64,000 nt of DNA. It comes from Panopea generosa (Eukaryota > Mollusca > Bivalvia > Adapedonta > Hiatellidae). The DNA is taken from NCBI GenBank assembly GCA_029582155.1, contig CM055898.1, positions 25,335,339 through 25,399,338 of the forward strand. The letters run 5' to 3'. Numbering within the stretch: position 1 is the first letter of the stretch; every line of letters starts with the position of its first letter. Below are positions 2,163 through 62,965 of this stretch, in pieces. The translations under genes and the position numbers were made by a program. The notes beneath the pieces are model-generated. The model ran no database searches. It was not told the DNA's origin and was given only the letters and a program-made list of their open reading frames with translations.

Positions 2163-5100
2163 TCATACTGGACGAGGTGTAAACGTGTCACAGTTAACAT
2201 GAATATTTTTCCATGGTTCTTCATACCTTGCCGACGGTTCTGCAGTTTGATCTTTTATTTCTTCATATATGTTTGAACTATGCTGTGATCCGCCGGCGGC
2301 GTAATCATAAGTCTGTGAAGTTTCTGATGACGCCGGAACGTATTCGACTATACTCGGTAATGGTCGTGAAACAACTGAACGGGGTTCTTCATATGCCTGG
2401 TTATCCATCATTGTAGTCGAGAGTCTCGCGAGATCTGTACTGGCGTACGGGTGTGCCTCTGCACGTGCAACATCCCTGTCAACTTTACCAGGCTCTGGAA
2501 GAGCGTAAAACAATTTGTCCCAAAACCACGCATCGCTATATTTAATGCAATTGTCAGTTTTCATGAACGACAGCATCACAGGGTCTAACTTTGTTTTGTC
2601 TATTTTTCCTAAAACAACAAGAATAAGTCTCCTGCCACAGTCTAATTTTACGCGTTCAACAACGAATTTTAACCAGGGATTGTCTGAAATATAGTCACTG
2701 GACAATACAACTACCACTCTGTGACTCGAAGTCACTGCGTTTTCGATAAAATTTTGAACCGAGCTGCCTATCGGACAGTCCCGATGCTGTACAAGCAGGC
2801 GATACTTTGGTTTTCCTCGCTCAAGTCTCAGAGCCAGTTCTCTTATGACGTAACTATCGTCACGTGGATGATACGAGATGAACGCATCGTAGTGACGTGA
2901 TTTGTCAAACATAAGCTCCTTGTCGGGCGACTTACATTTATACTTAGTAAACAGCCAACACCTGACAAAGTCTCGTCTACAGATCACACCGATCACGAGA
3001 ATGATGATGAGAGTGGAGGCTATAATCACAGGAATGAATATCTTTAACCGCGAGCCCATAAATTCAGGACTGATACCTCGGCGCATCACGGAGCTGTCTA
3101 TATCATTTGAACTGTTATGCGTCACAAATTTTATGGTAGAATTAACTCTCTTTGTTGAGGTCAGATCCTCGACGCCATTGTTTTGATAGCCACATTCGGT
3201 GCCGTATTCTTCCAAAGTAGACACAGTGTTAACACTATTCAAAGAGTTGATACACCTAAAAGTAAGGGCAGAACTACCCAGCGCCGCTGCGTCTGCCGTG
3301 TTGATGAATGCCTTCTGGTTAAATTTAGCCGAGAAATATAAGATACAGTTGCATGACCAAGGATTTGCAAAAAGTGTTAGGTCTCTGACTGTAAACACGA
3401 TATGTGACGTGTAGTCGTCCATGTATTGAAGATAATTGTTGGAGAGCCTCAGCGTCTTCAGAGACGACATGTAATCAAACACTCCTGTTTGAATGTAAGA
3501 TATATGATTGTGATCGAGGTAAAGCGTCTGCAAGTTGGTCACTCCATCGAACACGCCGACTTCTAGTGCTTTAATGAAGTTGTGATCGAGATAAAGACGT
3601 CTGAGTGAATACAGACCGGTAAAGGACCTGTTGAAGAGCTGCTCAATACTGCTACCATTGAGAAACAAGGACGTGAGATTTGACATGCCTATAAAGCTGT
3701 GACTAGGGACGGTAACCAAATTGTTCCCACTGATATCAAGTTTTGTTGTCATCCGAGGTATGAATTTATCAATTGCTGTGAGGTTTTTCCTCGAGCATGT
3801 TGTATAATGCCGTGTGCTAAAATCCGCACTGTTAAAACATTCGCATTCGGAAGGACAGCTGTATTTACAATCACACGCTTCGTAATCGCAGCAAGGGCAT
3901 GTTTGTAAACACAACTTTTCGTACTGACAAAGAAATTGGGCTTCCGGTATAGACTGAACTGGGGCTTCTGGGTAATTGTACGCCCCAGTGCAGCGCGTGA
4001 TATTTAGATTGACGATGATTGGTCCGCGGGTTGACTGGTCCCATTTCTTTAGCCATAACAAATTGCAGTCGCATTTAAGAGGGTTTTGATCCAGACGAAT
4101 TCCCGTTTGAGCAAATCTGCCAGTTGAAACGGCTAACGCAGATTTTGTTAACGTAACAATCATGTTATATCGGAGGTCAATCATTCGTATTTGATTCAGA
4201 CCGTTAAAAGCATTTGGTCGGATATACGCTATTTCGTTGAATGAAAGATCGAGCATTTCCAACGACTCGGGGAACGTGTAACGCTGGATGGTGTCCCGGA
4301 TTTCATTACTGCTTAAATTCAGCTCCAGGAGACCGTTCATGTTGGCGAATGTTTTACCTATCGTCTCAATGCGGTTTCTGTTTAAAAGAAGTGTTTGAAG
4401 CTTTAGACCCATGAACAATGATGGGTGAACATACCGGATCAAATTTTTCGATAAATCTAAGTTGTCCATGGATTCACACGATATAAAGAAGGAGTCACTT
4501 AGTTCAGAAATCTGGTTGTTTGACAAATTTATATCTTTTACGTTGCCTTGTCCAATGAACATATCGTCTGGTAGTTTACCAAGAATGTTGTTTCGCGCGT
4601 CAAAGACGAGAAGCGAAGACAGTTTTTTAAGAGAAGGAAGATCCATAAGATAGTTGGATGACACATTTATGTGGGTCAGTGCAGTCAGGGAGTTCAGAAT
4701 GTCAACATTCATACTGTATATGGAATTATCTTGCAATTGTAAACTCGTCAAATATAGCAATCCGTAGAACGACCCATTATCCACTGTGTGAAGCTGATTC
4801 CCGGCAATATTAAGGGATCTCAGACGCTGTTGGTTTTGAAACATGTGATCTGGAATCTTTACTATGTAGTTGTTTGCGACATTTAATTCAATCAGTTCTG
4901 TTAGGACAGAAACAGCATCTGCCATAAACGTTGTCAGTCGATTAAAGCTTAGATTCAACAACAAGAGATTTTTAAGGGTAGTTAAGCGTGACCACGCGGT
5001 ATCATTCAGAGCGTTTCGTTGAAGTTGAAGCTGAAGTAGACGCTTGGAATGCAAAAAGATGTCGTCTGGAAGATACGAAATATTATTTTCAGACAGATCG

Positions 5101-5909
5101 ATTTCTTGAATATCGGTGTTCATTTCAATAAATGCATCAGGAATGTCGGAAATATTGTTTCGTGATAAATCTAAAATTCTCAAATGCAGGAAATGTCCAA
5201 ATAGATTATCGTCGGCCGAAATAATAATTTCATTATCATTCGCTATAAAAGTTTTGATATTTGGAAACACCAGCCCGTGGAATTTTATTATTGATAAACT
5301 TTGCAATTTGTTGCCGGAGATGTCGATGAGGTGAAGATTTTTCAGAGAAGACCTCGTACTTCCGCACGCCAATCCAGTGTCCTTGAAAGATGATAATGAA
5401 TTTCCGGTCAAGTTGACCGACTGCAAACCACTCAATAGGCAAAGGTTCGGAATCTTTATCAATCCGCTGTTAGCGAGCACCATTTTTTCTATCCCGACAA
5501 CGCTTTTTAAAGCATCTGGGTGAATTTGAAGATGGAAATTTGATGCAGAATGAATTGAGATGTGTCGCAAATTGTGCAAACCTCTAAATGCATTCCTGTG
5601 AATATATGTTAGTTTACAGTTATTCATGGAAATAGACTCCACAGTTTGTAAGTATGTAAATATGTCGTCTGTTAAATCGACTGGTACGAAAGACTCACAA
5701 TCTATGGTCAAAGAAACCTTGTCGGTTGTACTGGACAGTGAATACAGTTGGAACTCCTTTAAATCTTGGACGAAGCATTTAATCTGTAAAACTACCTCTG
5801 AATTCACCATAACATCGTTGCAGACACATAACGCCGGGCATTTTCTCGAGTTTGGAACTGCAGACGACATATGCAGACACAAAAATATAAAAATTGCAGC
5901 AGACTTCAT
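2163..5909 (-). CDS. Toll-like receptor, protostome (two LRR-CT) type, intronless coding region
   Basis: A 1248-residue type I membrane receptor. From the ATG at 5909 (MKSAAIFIFL...) the order is: hydrophobic signal peptide (about 1-18), LRR-NT cysteines (about 24-45), some 20 LxxLxLxxN-type repeats (about 85-600), LRR-CT beginning CDCNLLWLKKW (about 613-661), a second cysteine-rich LRR-NT (about 667-705), about five more LRRs, a second LRR-CT (about 853-906), one membrane helix (about 955-978), a TIR domain (about 1004-1140) and a tail of roughly 106 residues. TIR box 1 is YDAFISY, box 2 is HRDCPIGSS, and box 3 is FWDKLFYALP. Paired LRR-CT/LRR-NT blocks are typical of Drosophila Toll and many molluscan TLRs, unlike most vertebrate TLRs. 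Known family role: ligand-induced dimerisation and recruitment of TIR adaptors such as MyD88; the ligand is unknown. The open frame runs 16 codons further upstream without an ATG, and a splice acceptor lies there, so the ATG at 5909 is the start chosen. The tail is rich in tyrosine motifs. No frameshift or stop is seen. Confidence 0.93.
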   Translation of the reverse strand: MKSAAIFIFLCLHMSSAVPNSRKCPALCVCNDVMVNSEVVLQIKCFVQDLKEFQLYSLSSTTDKVSLTIDCESFVPVDLTDDIFTYLQTVESISMNNCKLTYIHRNAFRGLHNLRHISIHSASNFHLQIHPDALKSVVGIEKMVLANSGLIKIPNLCLLSGLQSVNLTGNSLSSFKDTGLACGSTRSSLKNLHLIDISGNKLQSLSIIKFHGLVFPNIKTFIANDNEIIISADDNLFGHFLHLRILDLSRNNISDIPDAFIEMNTDIQEIDLSENNISYLPDDIFLHSKRLLQLQLQRNALNDTAWSRLTTLKNLLLLNLSFNRLTTFMADAVSVLTELIELNVANNYIVKIPDHMFQNQQRLRSLNIAGNQLHTVDNGSFYGLLYLTSLQLQDNSIYSMNVDILNSLTALTHINVSSNYLMDLPSLKKLSSLLVFDARNNILGKLPDDMFIGQGNVKDINLSNNQISELSDSFFISCESMDNLDLSKNLIRYVHPSLFMGLKLQTLLLNRNRIETIGKTFANMNGLLELNLSSNEIRDTIQRYTFPESLEMLDLSFNEIAYIRPNAFNGLNQIRMIDLRYNMIVTLTKSALAVSTGRFAQTGIRLDQNPLKCDCNLLWLKKWDQSTRGPIIVNLNITRCTGAYNYPEAPVQSIPEAQFLCQYEKLCLQTCPCCDYEACDCKYSCPSECECFNSADFSTRHYTTCSRKNLTAIDKFIPRMTTKLDISGNNLVTVPSHSFIGMSNLTSLFLNGSSIEQLFNRSFTGLYSLRRLYLDHNFIKALEVGVFDGVTNLQTLYLDHNHISYIQTGVFDYMSSLKTLRLSNNYLQYMDDYTSHIVFTVRDLTLFANPWSCNCILYFSAKFNQKAFINTADAAALGSSALTFRCINSLNSVNTVSTLEEYGTECGYQNNGVEDLTSTKRVNSTIKFVTHNSSNDIDSSVMRRGISPEFMGSRLKIFIPVIIASTLIIILVIGVICRRDFVRCWLFTKYKCKSPDKELMFDKSRHYDAFISYHPRDDSYVIRELALRLERGKPKYRLLVQHRDCPIGSSVQNFIENAVTSSHRVVVVLSSDYISDNPWLKFVVERVKLDCGRRLILVVLGKIDKTKLDPVMLSFMKTDNCIKYSDAWFWDKLFYALPEPGKVDRDVARAEAHPYASTDLARLSTTMMDNQAYEEPRSVVSRPLPSIVEYVPASSETSQTYDYAAGGSQHSSNIYEEIKDQTAEPSARYEEPWKNIHVNCDTFTPRPV

Positions 5910-5918
5910 CTCAGCGTT

Positions 5919-5936
5919 CCTGAAAAGAGAAATCGA
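5919..5936 (-). promoter_or_regulatory. Predicted 3' splice site in the receptor 5'UTR
   Basis: On the minus strand the sequence just before the start is a pyrimidine tract ending in CAG (ATTTCTCTTTTCAG|G), with the AG at 5921-5920, ten bases upstream of the ATG at 5909-5907. This fits a 5'UTR intron ending immediately before the coding exon, a common arrangement in TLR genes. The donor and first exon were not identified, so the promoter may be kilobases away at higher coordinates. Confidence 0.6.
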
Positions 5937-5959
5937 TGGAGTTTTGATAAATGGCAATC

Positions 5960-17007: not shown

Positions 17008-17315
17008 CTGCATCGTGGTCTACTAGTAGTGGTAGAGCGTCTGCCTAGCATGCGGAAGGTCGTGGATTCGGTCCCCGGCCGGTTCATAATCAAATACTTG
17101 AAAAATTATACTAAAAGTTTCCTCGCTTGGCGCTCAGCATTTAGAGGATAGTTATAGGTGTCAGCGTAATGTGATTGGGTAGGGTATCATACTATGTGCA
17201 TGCGGCTTTATGCGCCATTGTGGCAGCGCTCAAAATACTATCGCAAGTAGACACAGTCGCGATATACTGTAACTGAAATGTGGTTGAAAGCGACGCTTAA
17301 CACCATACAGCTACA
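17008..17315 (+). mobile_element. SINE family B, copy 1
   Basis: Head with Pol III-like boxes: 'tagtggtagagcgtctgcc' (A box region) and 'ggtcgtggattcggtcccc' (B box region), with the arm 'tagcatgcgga' between. The body matches the copy at 45.9 kb along its length: 'cgctcagcatttagagga', 'gtaatgtgattgggtagggt', 'atcatactatgtgcatg' and 'aaagcgacgcttaa'. Clear target-site duplications are not seen; a short 'tcaacatt' occurs on both sides. Confidence 0.75.
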
Positions 17316-21099: not shown

Positions 21100-21904
21100 A
21101 AAGCAGTATATATCACAATTCACGTGTCTTTTTAAATGCGTTAATAAAACGAAATAAGTCATTTCCACGCATTGTAAAAAGCTTGTATCAAATAGTTGTA
21201 AACGACAGACAATCGATCCGTTTGATAAATGTCAATATACAAACCCGGAGTTAAAATCCAATTTCAAAATCAATCTCTTTTGAATAATTTCTCCTGCTTT
21301 CTAGTATATCAAAACTTCTCATTTTCCTGTCACAATAATGACACACCATATATTAATACGGAAATTTCTAAATGTAATATGGTCACGCAGCAGACGACTC
21401 TTAGATAAAGCAGACGATAAAACTAGAAGTGGTTGGAAATCTGAAATATTGATCTTAAAGAGAATATTTGATTTGTGACATCATAAAACATGTGTCTTCT
21501 CACGTTCAAAATTGTATTAATGATGGGTAATTATTCGAAATGCCGTTAATGAGGCACTATTAGGGGTTAAAAATCGTGTCAAATCTTCAAAACTTCTTTC
21601 TTGGAGAATTCCATACGAATACAGTTTTCTTTTCAATCGTGTTGTGTTAGTCTGTGTGTTATGGAGAAAAAAATCCAGATGTGTGTATACAGACCAATAT
21701 CTCTAATTATTTTATACAAATAATTATATTTATGAGTATAAGCGCGTTAAATGAAGTGTATGATAAATGCTTTCTGGAAAAAAACAACCTCTATTGCAAA
21801 TAGTCTTTTTTTACATAAAATTGCACATTTTATTATAAAAGATAATTCGCTACATTGTCATTGCTTTTTAGTCAGATAAAAGTCAAAGGTATTAAACCTG
21901 TGGT
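21100..21904. other. Unique AT-rich sequence, no gene seen
   Basis: Nothing recognised between the TAG repeat and the 25-bp satellite. Confidence 0.4.
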
Positions 21905-23285
21905 AGCGTATAAATATGCATCATATTGTAGCGTATAAATATGCATCATATTGTAGCATATACATATGCATCATATTGTAGCGTATACATATGCATCATA
22001 TTGTAGCGTATAAATATGCATCATATTGTAGCGTATAAATATGCATCATATTGTAGCGTATAAATATGCATCATATTGTAGCGTATAAATATGCATCATA
22101 TTGTAGAGTATACATATGCATCATATTGTAGCGTATACATATGCATCATATTGTAGCGTACAAATATGCATCATATTGTAGCGTATACATATGCATCATA
22201 TTGTAGCGTATACATATGCATCATATTGTAGCGTATACATATGCATCATATTGTAGCGTACAAATATGCATCATATTGTAGCGTACAAATATGCATCATA
22301 TTGTAGCGTACACATATGCATCATATTGTAGCGTATACATATGCATCATATTGTAGCGTATACATATGCATCATATTGTAGCGTACAAATATGCATCATA
22401 TTGTAGCGTATACATATGCATCATATTGTAGCGTATACATATGCATCATATTGTAGCGTATACATATGCATCATATTGTAGCGTATACATATGCATCATA
22501 TTGTAGCGTACAAATATGCATCATATTGTAGCGTATTAATATGCATCATATTGTAACGTATACATATGCATCATATTGAAACGTATACATATGCATCATA
22601 TTGTAGCATACAAATATGCATCATATTGTAGTGTATACATATGCATCATATTGTAGCGTATACATATGCATCATATTGTAATGTATACATATGCATCATA
22701 TTGTAGCGTATACATATGCATCATATTGTAGCGTACAAATATGCATCATATTGTAGCGTATACATATGCATCATATTGTAACGTATACATATGCATCATA
22801 TTGTAGCGTACAAATATGCATCATATTGTAGCGTACACATATGCATCATATTGTAGCGTATACATATGCATCATATTGTAGCGTATACATATGCATCATA
22901 TTGTAACGTATACATATGCATCATATTGTAGCATACAAATATGCATCATATTGTAGCGTATACATATGCATCATATTGTAGCGTATACATATGCATCATA
23001 TTGTAGCGTATACATATGCATCATATTGTAACGTATACATATGCATCATAGTGTAGCGTACAAATATGCATCATATTGTAGCGTATACATATGCATCATA
23101 TTGTAGCATATACATATGCATCATATTGTAATGTATACATATGCATCCTATTGTAGCGTATACATATGCATCATATTGTAGCGTATACATATGCATCATA
23201 TTGTAGCGTATACATATGCATCATATTGTAACGTATAAATATGCATAATATTGTAGCGTATGAATATGCATCATATTGTAGCGTG
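21905..23285. repeat. 25-bp satellite array, about 55 units
   Basis: Highly regular head-to-tail array of 'gcgtatacat' + 'atgcatcatattgta' (25 bp). Nearly all variation is in the first ten bases: tataaat, tatacat and tacaaat variants, plus acgta, gcata and atgta. The ATGCAT core is nearly invariant. The first units are mostly 'tataaat', later ones 'tatacat' with regularly spaced 'tacaaat' units. Confidence 0.97.
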
Positions 23286-41683: not shown

Positions 41684-42950
41684 ACTTGGCAAATGAAACG
41701 TTTCCAGGTGTAACAATTGGTTTGTACAAAGGTAAGTGAAACGTTCCCAGGTGTCACAATTTGTTTGAACAAAGGTTAGTGAAACGTTCCCAGGTGTCAC
41801 AATTTGTTTGTACTAAGATTGGTGAAACGTTTCCAGGTGTCACAATTGTTTGTACTACGATAAGTCAAAAGTTCCCAGGTGTCACAATTTGTTTGTACTA
41901 AGATTAGTGAAACGTTCCCAGGTGTCACAATTTGTTTATATTAAGGTTAGTGAAACGTTCCCGGTGTCACAATTTGCTTGTACTAAGATAAGTGAAACGT
42001 TCCAAGGTGTCACAATTTGTTTGTACTAAGATTAGTGAAACGTTCCCAGGTGTCACAATTGTTTGTGCTAAGATAAGTGAAACGTTTCTAGGTGTCACAA
42101 TTGTTTGTACTAAGATAAGTGAAACGTTCCCAGGTGTCACAATTTGTTTGTACTAAGGTTAGTGAAACGTTCCCAGGTGTAACAATGTGTTTGTACTAAG
42201 ATAAGTGAAACGTTCCCAGGTGTCACAATTTGTTTGTACTAAGGTTAGTGAAACGTTCCCAGATGTCACAATTTGTTTGTGCTTAGATTATCGAAACGTT
42301 CCCAGGTGTCACAATTTGTTTGTACTTAGATTAGCGAACCGTTCCAAGGTGTCACAATTTGTTTGTACTTAGGTTAGTGAAACGTTCCCAGATGTCACAA
42401 TGTGCTTGTACTAAGATAAGTGAAACGTCCCAGGTGTCACAATTTATTTGTACTAAGATAAGTGAAACGTTCCCAGGTGTCACAGATCGTTTGTGCTAAG
42501 ATAAGTGAAACGTTCCCAGGTGTCACAATGTGTTTCTACTAAGATAAGTGAAACGTTCCCAGGTGTCACAATTGTTTGCGCTAAGATTAGTGAAACAAGT
42601 CCCTGGTGTCACAATTGTCTGTGCTAAAATAAGTGAAACAGGTCCTTAGTGTCACAATTGTTTGTGGTAAGATTAGTGAAACGTTCCCAGGTGTCACAAT
42701 TTGTTTGTACTAAGATTAGTGAAACTTTTCCAGGTGTCACAATCGTTTGTGCTAAGATAAGTGAAACAGGTCCCTGGTGTCACAATTGTTTGTGCTAAGA
42801 TTAGTGAAACGTTCCCAGGTGTCACAATTGTTTGTACTAAGATTAGTGAAACGTTCCCAGGTGTCATAATTGTTTGTGCTAAGATTAGTGAAATAGGTCC
42901 CTGATGTCACAATTGTTTGTGCTAAGATTAGTGAAACAGGTCCCTGGGCT
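41684..42950. repeat. 43-bp minisatellite, about 29 units
   Basis: Unit 'gtgaaacgttcccaggtgtc' + 'acaatttgtttgtactaaga' + 'tta', with slips of one or two bases. A distal subtype ('gaaacaggtccctggtgtca', 'gtttgtgctaagat') predominates from about 42590 to the end, showing local spread of a variant. Confidence 0.95.
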
Positions 42951-44659: not shown

Positions 44660-45215
44660 AGGTGTGAATACAGGGTTATTACTTTATCATAAATTATTGT
44701 AAATGTTTCTGGCCTAGGGACTTGCCCCAGAAGTCATGGTACCAATGCTGGATTCCTGACGAGCTCCGTTTTTGGGTGACTGCTAGCCTAATTGTGCAAA
44801 GTGCTCCTCTGTAAGAATGAATCCGTGGTGTCTTTGATCCATCTGAAAGCGACTCTAATGCGCCACCTGTACCCAGTGGCCAGTCTACGTATCTTCACTG
44901 GGCTGGTAAACCAGTCTAAGCTTCACTGGACGGGTTCATTCAGAAACATATGTAGACCGGTTACTATATGCAGAGTAACACGTAAAATTGGTTCAATGAG
45001 GTTCTGTTATTTCAGAAAGGGTAGCTGGCGGTGCATATCAACTTATTTATTTGTTAACCGATTTTAGAAACGTTTACATGTTTAGAAAGCTTGTTTTCGA
45101 AACAGAAAGATAATTAAAATATGTTCACGGCACATCATGGTACAGAAATATCAATATCATCCGATTTAGTCAATTTAATGAAACACCAAAAGATTGTTGA
45201 TTGTATTTTTTAAAA
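44660..45215. other. Unique sequence before the tRNA genes, no gene seen
   Basis: A 91-codon plus frame (44792-45067) has no recognisable domain. Confidence 0.4.
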
Positions 45216-45220
45216 GTACA

Positions 45221-45312
45221 CGCCCAACGGGGGACTCGAACCCCCGACCCTCAGATATCTGAGTGAATTCAGCTTTAAAAGTCTGATGCTCTACCGACTG
45301 AGCTAGCCGGGC
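45221..45312 (-). tRNA. tRNA-Lys(TTT) with 19-nt intron, copy 1
   Basis: Minus strand: acceptor GCCCGGC pairs with GTTGGGC (two G-U pairs), discriminator G at 45221. The D arm is GCTCAGTCGGTAGAGC, the anticodon stem TCAGA/TCTGA with loop CTTTTAA, and the T arm GGGGG TTCGAGT CCCCC. The anticodon is TTT. A 19-nt intron sits between positions 37 and 38, the canonical site, and contains CTGA...TCAG. Removing it leaves a 73-nt tRNA almost identical to animal tRNA-Lys(UUU). Pol III A and B boxes are intact, and a TTTT terminator follows within about 10 bases. It decodes AAA/AAG. Intron removal would need the tRNA splicing endonuclease. Confidence 0.92.
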
Positions 45313-45505
45313 GATATATATTATGACTCTAAGGGTTGCTCAGACAAGAAATATCGGGGTAATGTATGATTTCCAGTTATATAGTACAGACGGACATAAA
45401 TTAGTTTGTGCGACATGTGTTGAAAATCAATATCAATTCATGAGATATTAAACATACTAGTTGCTCATGTATCTATATAAAAATGACACGATGTCAAAAA
45501 CAGAA

Positions 45506-45703
45506 TACGATGCAACTATGCAATTTGAAATTTAGTTTTAATCTGCCTGCCTGTCTGCCTGCCTGTCTGCCTGCCATCCTGCCTTACGATGCAACTATGC
45601 AATTTGAAATTTAGTTTTAATCTGCCTGCCTGCCTGCCTGCCCGCCCGCCCGCCCGTCCGTCCGTCCGTCCGTCTGTCTGTCTGTCTGTCTGTCTGTCTG
45701 TAA
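45506..45703. repeat. 79-bp tandem duplication ending in a graded tetranucleotide repeat
   Basis: 'tacgatgcaactatgcaatt' begins at 45506 and again at 45585. Each copy ends in TGCC-type repeats. The second passes through TGCC, CGCC, CGTC and TGTC blocks in order. Confidence 0.9.
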
Positions 45704-45876
45704 TTTGTTTTAAGGGACTTATCGATTATAATGTTATAAAAAATTCTACAGGCTTTCGAATAGAAAAAATCAAAATCAGTTTTTAATATATAATCCTTTG
45801 TTGTTGTTGCTGATGTTTTTTTTTGTTTTTTGTGTGTGTGTGTGTTTTTTTTTTTGGTGTGGGGGTCATTTAAGCA

Positions 45877-46168
45877 GCGTGGTATAGTGGTAGAGAGTCT
45901 GCTTCGCATGCGGAAGGTCGTGGGTTCGATCTCCGATCGGGTCATAACAAAGACTTTAGAAATGGTACTAAAATCTTCCCTGCTTGACGCTTAGCATTTA
46001 GAGGAGAGTTCTAAGTCTGGTCGACCCGGTATCAGTATAATGTGACTGGGTGGGATATCATATTATGTGTCTGTGGCATGTTACTCCAGTTTGACAGCGC
46101 TTAGAATACTGTCTGAGGTAAACACCGTCGCAAAACGACTAAAAAATTGTTGAAATCGACGCTAAATT
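45877..46168 (+). mobile_element. SINE family B, copy 2, with target-site duplication
   Basis: tRNA-like head ('tagtggtagagagtctgctt', 'ggtcgtgggttcgatctcc') and a body matching 17008-17315. The 9-bp repeat ATTTAAGCA flanks it at 45868-45876 and 46169-46177. The element ends 26 bp from the mature 3' end of tRNA-Lys copy 2, beyond that gene's terminator. Confidence 0.85.
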
Positions 46169-46194
46169 ATTTAAGCAAAATGTTTAAAAACATA

Positions 46195-46287
46195 CGCCCA
46201 ACGAGGGACTCGAACCCCCGACCCTCAGATATCTGAGATTTAATCAGCCGTAAAAGTCTGATGCTCTACCGACTGAGCTAGCCGGGC
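46195..46287 (-). tRNA. tRNA-Lys(TTT) with 20-nt intron, copy 2
   Basis: Same exon sequence as copy 1 except one T-stem base (CCCTC, keeping a G-U pair). The intron is 20 nt at 37/38 and differs in the middle, but again has CTGA near its start and CTCAGAT at its end. A TTTTT terminator lies four bases after the gene (46186-46190 on plus). The acceptor stem and boxes are intact, so it should be expressible. Confidence 0.92.
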
Positions 46288-46289
46288 GA

Positions 46290-47585
46290 TATTTTCACAT
46301 AGAGTATATAACATAAACAAGGACAGCTGACTTTAATCTGTGTAATGATAAGATAATTATTAATCATTAATTAGGTTACACATGAAAAACAGTTTATATT
46401 CAAATAAATATCAATATTATCAGAGATATACATCATCAGCATTGCACACCAACCTCCACCATTCGAATGAGCCGCCTTTCGGAGCATGTGTCACCTGACG
46501 GCTATTATCTGACTCGAGTTGTCAAAATGTCATATATATTCAACCAGTCGGTGGAAGAAAATAAGCAAAAACTCGAATCACACGTGATATATATCTGAAG
46601 ATTCAGCCAGCCTTAGTGCGACATATTGCACGTCTCTATGGAGCCTTGTAAAGATTTTTATTTTGCGTCTCCCGAGACAGCAGATCAGATATCAAAATAA
46701 TAAAAAAAAAAGCTGTCCATTCACGCCTTATTTCTGCTGACATTTTGGTCGACGGATGAAACAGCCGTATTGTACTTTAAACTTAGGTTTTGGGCTTACC
46801 CAAAGGCCATAGCAGCTATACCAGATTTCTGACGCTATTCCCTAATAGTGATTTGCCCCTAAGTTCAATTTATTATTCGATTTTAATATTCTTTATTCTA
46901 GTATTTCTACGCAAGAACCATAATGCAGTTCCAGCGAAGCTGACTGAGTTCTTGAAAATCGATCAAGAATAACAGAATAAAAATATATAGAACCTGAAAT
47001 ATACATGTTTTCCCTTTCAATTATGAGACTGAGAAACCTGGCGTTATTATTTGTTTGATTTTTCAGCAAAAAATAAAAAAATAAATATTTTGGGAATCTT
47101 AGGAAGGATTCGTCTGTTCAACGCCGAGAGATTCGTCTGTTCAACGCCTATGAACTCGCCAGTGGAATAGGGTTAAAAAATAGAATTAAATTCCTAAACA
47201 AAACCAAAGTCACGTGCACATTACCATAAATTAATTATTACTGGCGATAGTAACACATACAATTTTAAAAAGATCAATCATAAGGTCTACTATGTTTGGA
47301 AACACATGTTTTCGTACTATTTTACAGATCGTGATGAAAAGATCCAACAGTATTGGAAAATAAAACGTTTAACCAAAATACCAAAAGTAAATGTCTAACC
47401 TTACATTCTTTGACCAGTATGCAACCAAAGTGCGCTATTTATAACATTTTAGTACATGCATACTGGTCATTGTGTAAATAAATATGCTGTTTGCTTTAAT
47501 TACAAACAGGCCAAACAAACAAGGAATTGAATACGCTGCAACATTATTTAACATAAATAAAAAAAATGGAAAAATAATAAAAATA
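46290..47585. other. Spacer between tRNA-Lys copies 2 and 3, no gene seen
   Basis: AT-rich. A short direct repeat ('gattcgtctgttcaacgcc') occurs at 47107 and 47130. No coding region is supported. Confidence 0.4.
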
Positions 47586-47587
47586 TT

Positions 47588-47680
47588 CGCCCAACGAGGG
47601 ACTCGAACCCCCGACCCTCAGATATCCGAGTGTTATTCAGTCTTAAAAGTCTGATGCTCTACCGACTGAGCTAGCCGGGC
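47588..47680 (-). tRNA. tRNA-Lys(TTT) with 20-nt intron, copy 3
   Basis: Exons match copy 2. The 20-nt intron ends CTCGGAT instead of CTCAGAT; CTGA can still pair with TCGG through a U-G pair, so the short intron stem is kept. A TTTTT terminator lies a few bases downstream on minus. All three genes share orientation and lie within 2.5 kb. Confidence 0.92.
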
Positions 47681-60609: not shown

Positions 60610-62965
60610 CTCATATTGATATGATTGGTGATGCAGTATCAAAAGTGTGAAGTACGGTATGGTGATGCAGTATCAAATATGTGAAGTACGGTATGGTGAT
60701 GCAGTATCAAAAGTATGAAGTACGGTATGGTGATGCAGTATCAAAAGTGTGAAGTACGGTATGGTGATGCAGTATCAAAAGTGTGTAGTACAGTATGATG
60801 ATGTAGTTTCGATATTGTGTAGTACGGTATGGTGACGCAGTATCTATATTGTGTAGTACGGTATGTTGACGAAGTATCAATAGTGTTTAATATGGTTTGG
60901 TGATGCAGTATCAATTTTGTGTAGTACAGTATGATGATGTAGTTTCGATATTGTGTAGTATGGTATGGTGACGCAGTATCTATATTGTGTAGAACAGTAT
61001 GTTGACGAAGTATCAATAGTGTTTGTTATGATAATGTGATGCAGTATCAATATTTTGTAGTAAGGTATAGTGTTGCAGTATCAACACTTTGAAGTGCGGT
61101 ATGTTGATGCAGCAGCAATAATTTTTAGTATGGTATGATGGTGAATTATCAATATTGTGTAGTACGCAGTATTAATAGTGTGAAGTATAGTACAGTGATG
61201 CAGTATCAATATTGTGTAGTGCGGTATGTTGATGCAGTATCAATATTGTGCAGTATGTTGTAGTGATGCAGTATCAATATTGTGCAGTACGGTATTGTGA
61301 TGCAGTATCAATATTGTGCAGTACGGTATGGTGATGTAGTATCAATATTGTGCAGTACGATATGGTGATGCAGTATATCAATATTGTGCAGTACGATATG
61401 GTGATACAGTATTTATAGTGTGTAATATAGTACAGTGATGCAGTATCAATACTGTGTAGTGCGGTATGGTAACGCAGTATTAATAGTATGTAGTATAATA
61501 CAGTGATGCAGTATCAATTTTGTGTAGTGCGGTATGTTGATGCAGTATCAATATTGTGCAGTACAGTGTAGTGATGCAGTATCAATATTGTATATTACGA
61601 TATGGTGATGCCTCAACAATGTTGTGTAGTATAGTATGGTGATGCAGTATCAATATAGTGTAGTACGGTATGGTGATGCAGTATCAATATTGTGTGGTAT
61701 GGTATGGTGATGCAGTTTCAAGTTTGTGTAGTGCAGTATGTTGATGAAGTATCAGTATTGTGTTTGTATGGTGTTGTGTTGCATTATTAATATTGTGTTA
61801 TACGTTATAGTGATGCATTGTCAATATTGTGTTGTCCGGTATATTTATGCAGTTTTAGTTCATTCAGTACGGTATGGCGATGCAGTATTATTATTGCAGA
61901 GTACGGTTTGTTGATACAGTATCAATCCTGTATAGTACGGTATTGTGGTACATTATCAATATTGTGTAGTACGGTATGGTGATTCAGTATCAATATTGTG
62001 AAGTACGGTATGGCGATGCAGAATTATTATTGTAGAGTACGGTATGTTGATGCAGTATCAATCCTGTATAGTACGGTATTGTGGTACATTATCAATATTG
62101 TGAAGAACGGTATTGTGATGCAGTATCAATATTGTGAAGTACGGTATTGTGATGCAGTATTAATATTGTGTAGTACGGTATTGTGATGTAGTATTAATAT
62201 TGTGTAGTACAGTTTGGTGATGCAATATTAATATTGTGTAGTACGGTATTGTGATGTAGTATTAATATTGTTTGGTACGGTATGGTGATGCAGTATTACT
62301 ATCGTGTAGTACGGTATGGTGATGCAGTATCAATCCTGTTTAGTATGGTATGGTGATGCAGTATCAATCCTGTGTAGTGCGGTATTGTGACGCAGTATTA
62401 CTATCGTGTAGTACGGTATTGTGATGCAGTATCAATCCTGTGTAGTACGGTACTGTGATGCAGTATTACTATCGTGTAGTACGGTATTGTGATGCAGTAT
62501 TCATATTGTGTAGTATGGTATGGTGATGCAGTATCAATCCTGTTTAGAACGGTATTGTGATAAATCATCAATACTATGTGGTACCGTATGGTGATGCCGT
62601 ACCAGTAATGTGTAGTACGGTATGGAGATGCAGCATAAATATTATGTGGTACGGTATGGTGATGTCGTACTAATATTGTGTAGTACGGTATGTTGGTGCA
62701 ATATCAATAATATGTAGTACGGTATGGTGATGCCGTACCAATAATGTGTAGTACGGTATGTTCATACAGTATCAATGTTATGTGGTACGGAATGGTGATG
62801 CGGTGTCAATAGTGTGTAGTAAGGTATGGTGATGCGGTGTCAATAGTGTGTAGTAAGGTATGGTGATGCGGTGTCAATAGTGTGTAGTAAGGTATGGTGA
62901 TGCAGTAACAGTTTTGTGTAATATGGTATGAGTATGCGGTATCTATATTATGTAGCACTGTATCC
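60610..62965. repeat. 34-bp minisatellite, about 69 units
   Basis: Unit 'tatggtgatgcagtatcaat' + 'attgtgtagtacgg'. Subtypes cluster: 'aaaagtgtgaag' (60640-60790), 'caatcctgtgtag' (62320-62560) and 'gcggtgtcaatagtgtgtag' (62796-62900). The array is the longest repeat in the window. Confidence 0.96.

Follow-up and report, generated by a model that had tools for sequence, protein, structure and literature searches.

The locus examined here raises the question of whether three tRNA-Lys(UUU) genes of the bivalve Panopea generosa, each carrying a short intron, are working genes, and whether the reading of AAA codons in this animal would then depend on tRNA splicing. The usual intron-bearing tRNAs of well-studied animals are those for Tyr, Leu, Ile and Arg, with tRNA-Tyr as the standard carrier. 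Yeast tRNA-Lys(UUU) also carries an intron, at the same position and of similar length. The genes lie in a window of 64,000 nucleotides (C5:25335339-25399338), the whole stretch of DNA that was analyzed. The genome searched comprises 1,474,161,289 bases in 39 contigs; among the 26 contigs with a size shown, 19 measure 42-101 Mb and the remaining seven at most 8.6 Mb.

The three genes, their introns, the junctions to the 3' exon and the downstream T-runs were located on the minus strand as follows (intron sequences in gene sense):

45221..45312 (-), 5' end at 45312: tRNA-Lys(UUU) copy 1; Rfam RF00005, 57.8 bits; intact by the stem test
45257..45275 (-): 19-nt intron at 37/38 in copy 1, AAGCTGAATTCACTCAGAT
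45250..45263 (-): 14-base palindrome spanning the intron/3' exon junction of copy 1
45212..45215 (-): T-run past copy 1, Pol III terminator-like
46195..46287 (-): tRNA-Lys(UUU) copy 2; Rfam RF00005, 56.1 bits; intact by the stem test
46231..46250 (-): 20-nt intron at 37/38 in copy 2, CGGCTGATTAAATCTCAGAT
46224..46237 (-): 14-base palindrome spanning the intron/3' exon junction of copy 2
46186..46190 (-): T-run past copy 2
47588..47680 (-): tRNA-Lys(UUU) copy 3; Rfam RF00005, 56.1 bits; intact by the stem test
47624..47643 (-): 20-nt intron at 37/38 in copy 3, with TCGG for TCAG, AGACTGAATAACACTCGGAT
47617..47630 (-): intron/3' exon junction of copy 3, imperfect palindrome CTCGGATATCTGAG
47579..47583 (-): T-run past copy 3

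The first-pass annotation had described three same-strand tRNA-Lys(TTT) genes with introns of 19-20 nt at 37/38, and both the RF00005 matches and the exon alignment bear this out. Once the intron is removed, each copy is a 73-nt Lys body with a TTT anticodon, a complete cloverleaf and all stems paired, which differs at 7-8 of 73 positions from a human Lys-UUU sequence. The T-stem base of copy 1 is also present in some other intact Lys(UUU) copies. The T-run starts 4 or 5 nt 3' of each gene. Within the introns, CTGA begins at base 4 and the 3' end reads TCAGAT (TCGGAT in copy 3), so that the CTGA near the intron start and the TCAG or TCGG near its end are present as had been claimed. The same is true of the 14-base palindrome at the 3' junction of copies 1 and 2, CTCAGATATCTGAG, which is made up of the final seven intron bases and the first seven exon bases.

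The exons of the three genes are highly similar, with pairwise differences of 1, 1 and 0 of 73 (72-73/73 identical), whereas their introns and flanks are divergent. Between the 500-nt flanks, only short mutual matches were found (E ≥ 0.015), and a single flank match of 118 bp is an overlap between two extracted flanks; the flanks are thus unrelated. The trio recurs at C5:25829613-25832036, about 450 kb from positions 45221-47680 of the window, with 93.7-98.7% identity over four long blocks. Comparison of the two trios, with gaps set aside, gave 0 differences in 219 exon positions, 2 in 59 intron positions and 99 in 3383 flank positions (exon versus flank, p = 0.004). The second trio may be a segmental duplication or, within the assembly, a haplotype duplicate. 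Under either origin the contrast between exons and flanks holds, and a haplotype duplicate would reduce the count of intact genes by three.

The window contains several other features. A long single open frame at 2163-5957 (-) has many LRRs and a TIR domain and is of the Toll-like receptor type; together with the tRNA bodies and with RtcB, which plants and fungi lack (PMC6614914), it fits an animal host. A pair of SINE-like sequences headed by a tRNA (45885-46166 (+) and 17027-17300 (+)) shares 73% identity, and the former is located between tRNA-Lys copies 1 and 2. Two tRNA-like relics with a common tail (56824-56769 (-) and 41342-41277 (-)) represent another SINE-like family, with several similar places in the genome. 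Minisatellite arrays are very numerous (e.g. 21903-23284, 41694-42937 and 60626-62963); TRF returned 57 rows, some of which overlap.

To place the trio within the whole Lys(UUU) set, the genome was searched with an exon-intron-exon pattern, which matched exactly at 47 places versus none in a reversed control. At ≤ 16 exon mismatches, 63 copies were collected, and 62 were retained after C11:62524442 was dropped because of a broken alignment. Seven truncated intron-bearing copies (one on C2 and six on C11) fall beyond the exon cutoff and hence outside the 62. A copy was considered intact when all stem pairs were standard and the anticodon arm and six T-loop positions were as in the reference. 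By this definition, 31 of the 62 copies are intact and the other 31 are degenerate, including C11:62490800, which has a 7-nt intron. Every intact copy (31/31) carries a single intron of 19-23 nt at 37/38, and 30 of these copies have TTTT within 6 nt downstream. The intact copies are distributed over C11 (15), C5 (7), C1 (5), C2 (2), C4 (1) and C8 (1). Counts of repeats from the genome searches are lower bounds. A genome search with RF00005 scored 63 of 287530 candidates, which is no survey, and no counts were taken from it. An exact-pattern search of viral and prokaryote collections gave no matches, a result that is uninformative for an animal gene.

Several of the copies are arranged in arrays. 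One region of about 83 kb (C11:62451902-62535246) contains 15 of the intact Lys(UUU) copies alongside numerous decayed ones, and seven Asp(GTC) calls are interspersed. In the Lys(UUU) array at C1:38147094-38156574, the intron terminates in TGAC, replaced by TGGC in two decayed copies, and the G at the third position from its 3' end, G(-3), is kept. A further tRNA array with a spacing of about 280 bp is found at C9:62676714-62679307. When introns were allowed, ARAGORN called Lys(ttt) for 6/6 copies on C1 and for 6/44 copies elsewhere; the other 38 were called Val, Ile, Leu, Ala or unknown, and a 3-nt intron was often assigned (e.g. 46194-46288). This mislabeling of most Lys(UUU) copies outside C1, presumably caused by the self-complementary intron end, is a pitfall for annotation.

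If intronless Lys-TTT genes were the main expressed set, as the first-pass annotation allowed, such genes should be found elsewhere. Genome-wide searches with the anticodon arm, with exon 1 and with the anticodon stem left open recovered no intact intronless Lys(UUU) gene (for the open-stem places at two mismatches, among the matches listed), and the intronless TTT copies that were examined are broken, as judged from stem counts or by eye. The intronless Lys(UUU) arm had no sites at 0-2 mismatches and 12 at three mismatches; the surroundings of eight of these twelve were judged by eye to be tRNA-like repeat relics. Exon 1 matched exactly at 55 sites, of which 47 belong to the 62 copies, six are truncated intron-bearing copies and two are broken intronless relics on C18, so an intron is present at 53/55. 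Nineteen further sites matched exon 1 with one mismatch. The C11 array accounts for 13 of them, all with an intron (one of 7 nt), and none of the other six looks by eye like an intact Lys(UUU) gene. The open-stem search gave 370 places at ≤ 2 mismatches, which were mostly other tRNAs or repeats among the matches listed. Its sole exact place is a decayed copy of a Lys(CUU) array with a TTT anticodon, in which 2/4 D-stem, 6/7 acceptor-stem and 4/5 T-stem pairs are retained. Six further TTT places at one mismatch have at least two broken stem pairs each, based on a fixed 73-nt threading, and the remaining ones were judged from the arm sequence alone.

The tRNA-Lys(CUU) of the same genome serves as an internal control: it shares the amino acid family and a similar body with tRNA-Lys(UUU), whereas the intron was found in Lys(UUU) only. 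At ≤ 2 mismatches, the Lys(CUU) arm was found at 61 intronless sites (one with a TTT and one with a GTT anticodon), and the same kind of search found no intron-bearing Lys(CUU) arm genome-wide. Since these 61 sites were recovered, the arm search is able to find intronless lysine tRNA arms. Gene integrity was checked in three of the 61 sites, namely two with a C in the anticodon (L065 and L066) and the TTT copy, and all three are imperfect; the TTT copy, the only one with that anticodon within two mismatches of the Lys(CUU) arm, has 2/4 D-stem pairs. A tRNA array with the Lys(CUU) arm, often at a spacing of about 925 bp, is located at C2:38249732-38260028.

The introns themselves vary, and some of their positions are constrained. 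Based on 24 distinct introns of intact copies, the only invariant bases in the last nine positions are C(-7), G(-3) and A(-2). G(-3), the expected partner of C32, is present in 31/31 intact versus 24/31 degenerate copies, seven of which have lost it (Fisher p = 0.011). Pairing of CTGR with TCRG at the two intron ends was compared outside C1, with C11:62490800 (7-nt intron) also left out, and is present in 26/26 intact versus 17/27 degenerate copies (p = 0.0007). These p-values, and that of the exon-flank contrast, are optimistic because tandem array copies share descent and are not independent. The earlier claim that the pairing of the intron ends is kept therefore stands for the intact copies outside C1. 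It does not extend to the five intact C1 copies, which have an intron 3' end of ...TGAC, lack the palindrome, keep G(-3) and use different pairing registers (3 to 6 pairs in four distinct introns). As these intact copies have another 3' end and other registers, neither the exact CTGA/TCAG pairing nor the palindrome is required. The exact junction palindrome occurs in 22/31 intact copies; a role as an essential signal was ruled out by its absence from the other nine. In tRNA-Tyr of the same genome, 35 intron-bearing matches (25 distinct introns), counted irrespective of gene integrity, have G(-3) in 35/35, and G(-3) is the sole invariant among the last eight positions of the 25 distinct introns.

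These observations are best read as ordinary introns of the TSEN/RTCB type that are fixed across the Lys(UUU) set. For the window, we infer, with a probability of about 0.9, three working nuclear tRNA-Lys(UUU) genes with canonical 37/38 introns that would be transcribed, cut and joined, and on whose splicing AAA decoding would depend. In the fly (PMC6614914), the cut sites follow from a proximal pair that involves C32: the 5' cut lies 6 nt away, and the 3' cut is at a 3-nt bulge. The spacing and the possible C32-G(-3) pair agree with this rule in 31/31 intact copies at the level of sequence, and by the fly rule all intact copies should be TSEN substrates. In such a scheme, Pol III would transcribe the window genes, as suggested by their intact tRNA bodies and T-runs. 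TSEN would cut the precursor by a ruler that sets the end of exon 1 at 6 nt on from C32 (C32 counted), while pairing of C32 with intron G(-3) would leave three nucleotides bulged at the 3' cut. The two exon halves would be ligated by RTCB to give an ordinary 73-nt tRNA-Lys whose anticodon is UUU, and the intron would be released in free or circular form. For the enzymes, RtcB gave five exon matches on C10, three of which have one internal stop, and the TSEN family gave a single exon on C11 (34.7 bits versus a cutoff of 27), assigned to the family and not to a subunit. tRNA-Lys(CUU) is unable to read AAA under the decoding rules. As every intact Lys(UUU) copy found carries the intron, which was found in no Lys(CUU), and as Lys(CUU) does not serve AAA, the decoding of this codon should depend on tRNA splicing.

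Two other origins of the window copies were weighed against working genes. They could be silent pseudogenes or relics of tRNA-derived repeats, with the tRNA being made by intronless genes elsewhere. Half of the 62 aligned copies are indeed degenerate, tRNA-like SINE relics occur in the window and in the genome, and the two relics on C18 are intronless and of the Lys(UUU) type. Yet in the window copies every stem is paired and a T-run follows, their exons are conserved relative to the flanks in the duplicated trio, they lack the shared flanks expected of SINE or LTR copies, and no intact intronless Lys(UUU) gene was among the matches listed in the genome searches, which makes this origin very improbable. 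A tRNA-derived SINE or pseudogene with a decayed body and a shared tail was ruled out by the intact stems and the lack of a common tail. The locus could also be a copy of a mobile element of the Helenus type with a tRNA-like LTR, as bivalve Helenus LTRs contain tRNA-like sequences and a legend aligns molluscan tRNA-like sequences with Aplysia tRNA-Lys-TTT (PMC10886601). In the window, the tRNA bodies are complete and the flanks of the three genes are mutually unrelated, so the genes do not lie in shared LTR sequence; a Helenus LTR was rejected on these flanks, and we regard this origin as barely credible.

A further reading concerns the introns of working genes: the intron ends and the palindrome could form a regulatory fold switch. 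By pairing with the two halves of the anticodon stem, the intron would block TSEN until the precursor refolds. Predictions with ViennaRNA lend this some substance. For 22/22 distinct precursors outside C1, the anticodon stem is open in the minimum-energy structure, which also counts against the preferred reading, and the intron of copy 1 is predicted to pair with both anticodon-stem halves. A cloverleaf with the intron looped out is possible, yet it is not the minimum-energy fold in 26/27 distinct precursors. Outside C1, the mean energy gap to the cloverleaf is 8.0 kcal/mol versus 3.8 for shuffled introns, and the intron pairing in all intact and only part of the degenerate copies there points the same way. 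On the other hand, only 10/20 distinct introns outside C1 exceed 95% of their own shuffles, those on C1 equal theirs (0/4), nine of the intact copies lack the exact palindrome, and 4/5 C1 precursors open the stem without it. The spliced tRNA itself has a gap of 2.2 to the cloverleaf in the same model, which leaves out modifications and bound proteins, and the array copies are of common descent. The open-stem fold is probably a side effect of letters of the anticodon stem that recur in the intron ends, and a regulatory switch is unlikely. The same applies to the most far-reaching version, an animal lineage in which the whole supply of the only AAA-reading tRNA is under splicing, the rival fold regulates maturation in most copies and AAA translation is tied to TSEN/RTCB, which we consider a doubtful proposal.

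Working genes with ordinary introns thus remain the preferred reading, and they can be compared with known systems. Canonical eukaryotic tRNA introns are a known kind (PMC4090602). The Lys(UUU) introns resemble the canonical TSEN-cut 37/38 introns of animal tRNA-Tyr(GUA) in position, length range and fixed G(-3), and differ from canonical animal tRNA introns in their carrier, since Lys(UUU) falls outside the usual set. The type of intron is ordinary; its carrier is unusual for well-studied animals. The intron of yeast tRNA-Lys(UUU) is found in the same isoacceptor at the same position and has a similar length, whereas the ligation route differs: in plants and fungi, which lack RtcB, the exons are joined by healing and sealing, and animals use RtcB (PMC6614914). 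The gain of the Lys(UUU) intron is likely independent of yeast. A literature search gave no report of molluscan tRNA-Lys introns among the matches listed, which are mostly outside subscription journals and provide weak evidence. This absence from the listed matches means little, as GtRNAdb contained a single mollusc, Aplysia, in 2023 (PMC10886601).

The intact copies with varied introns beside decayed ones form a natural experiment that reveals which bases are important, G(-3) foremost, with the intronless Lys(CUU) as a contrast. Should every working Lys(UUU) gene carry the intron, the reading of AAA would be limited by TSEN or RTCB activity. tRNA splicing would then gain a direct hold on translation in this animal beyond the Tyr, Leu, Ile and Arg carriers.
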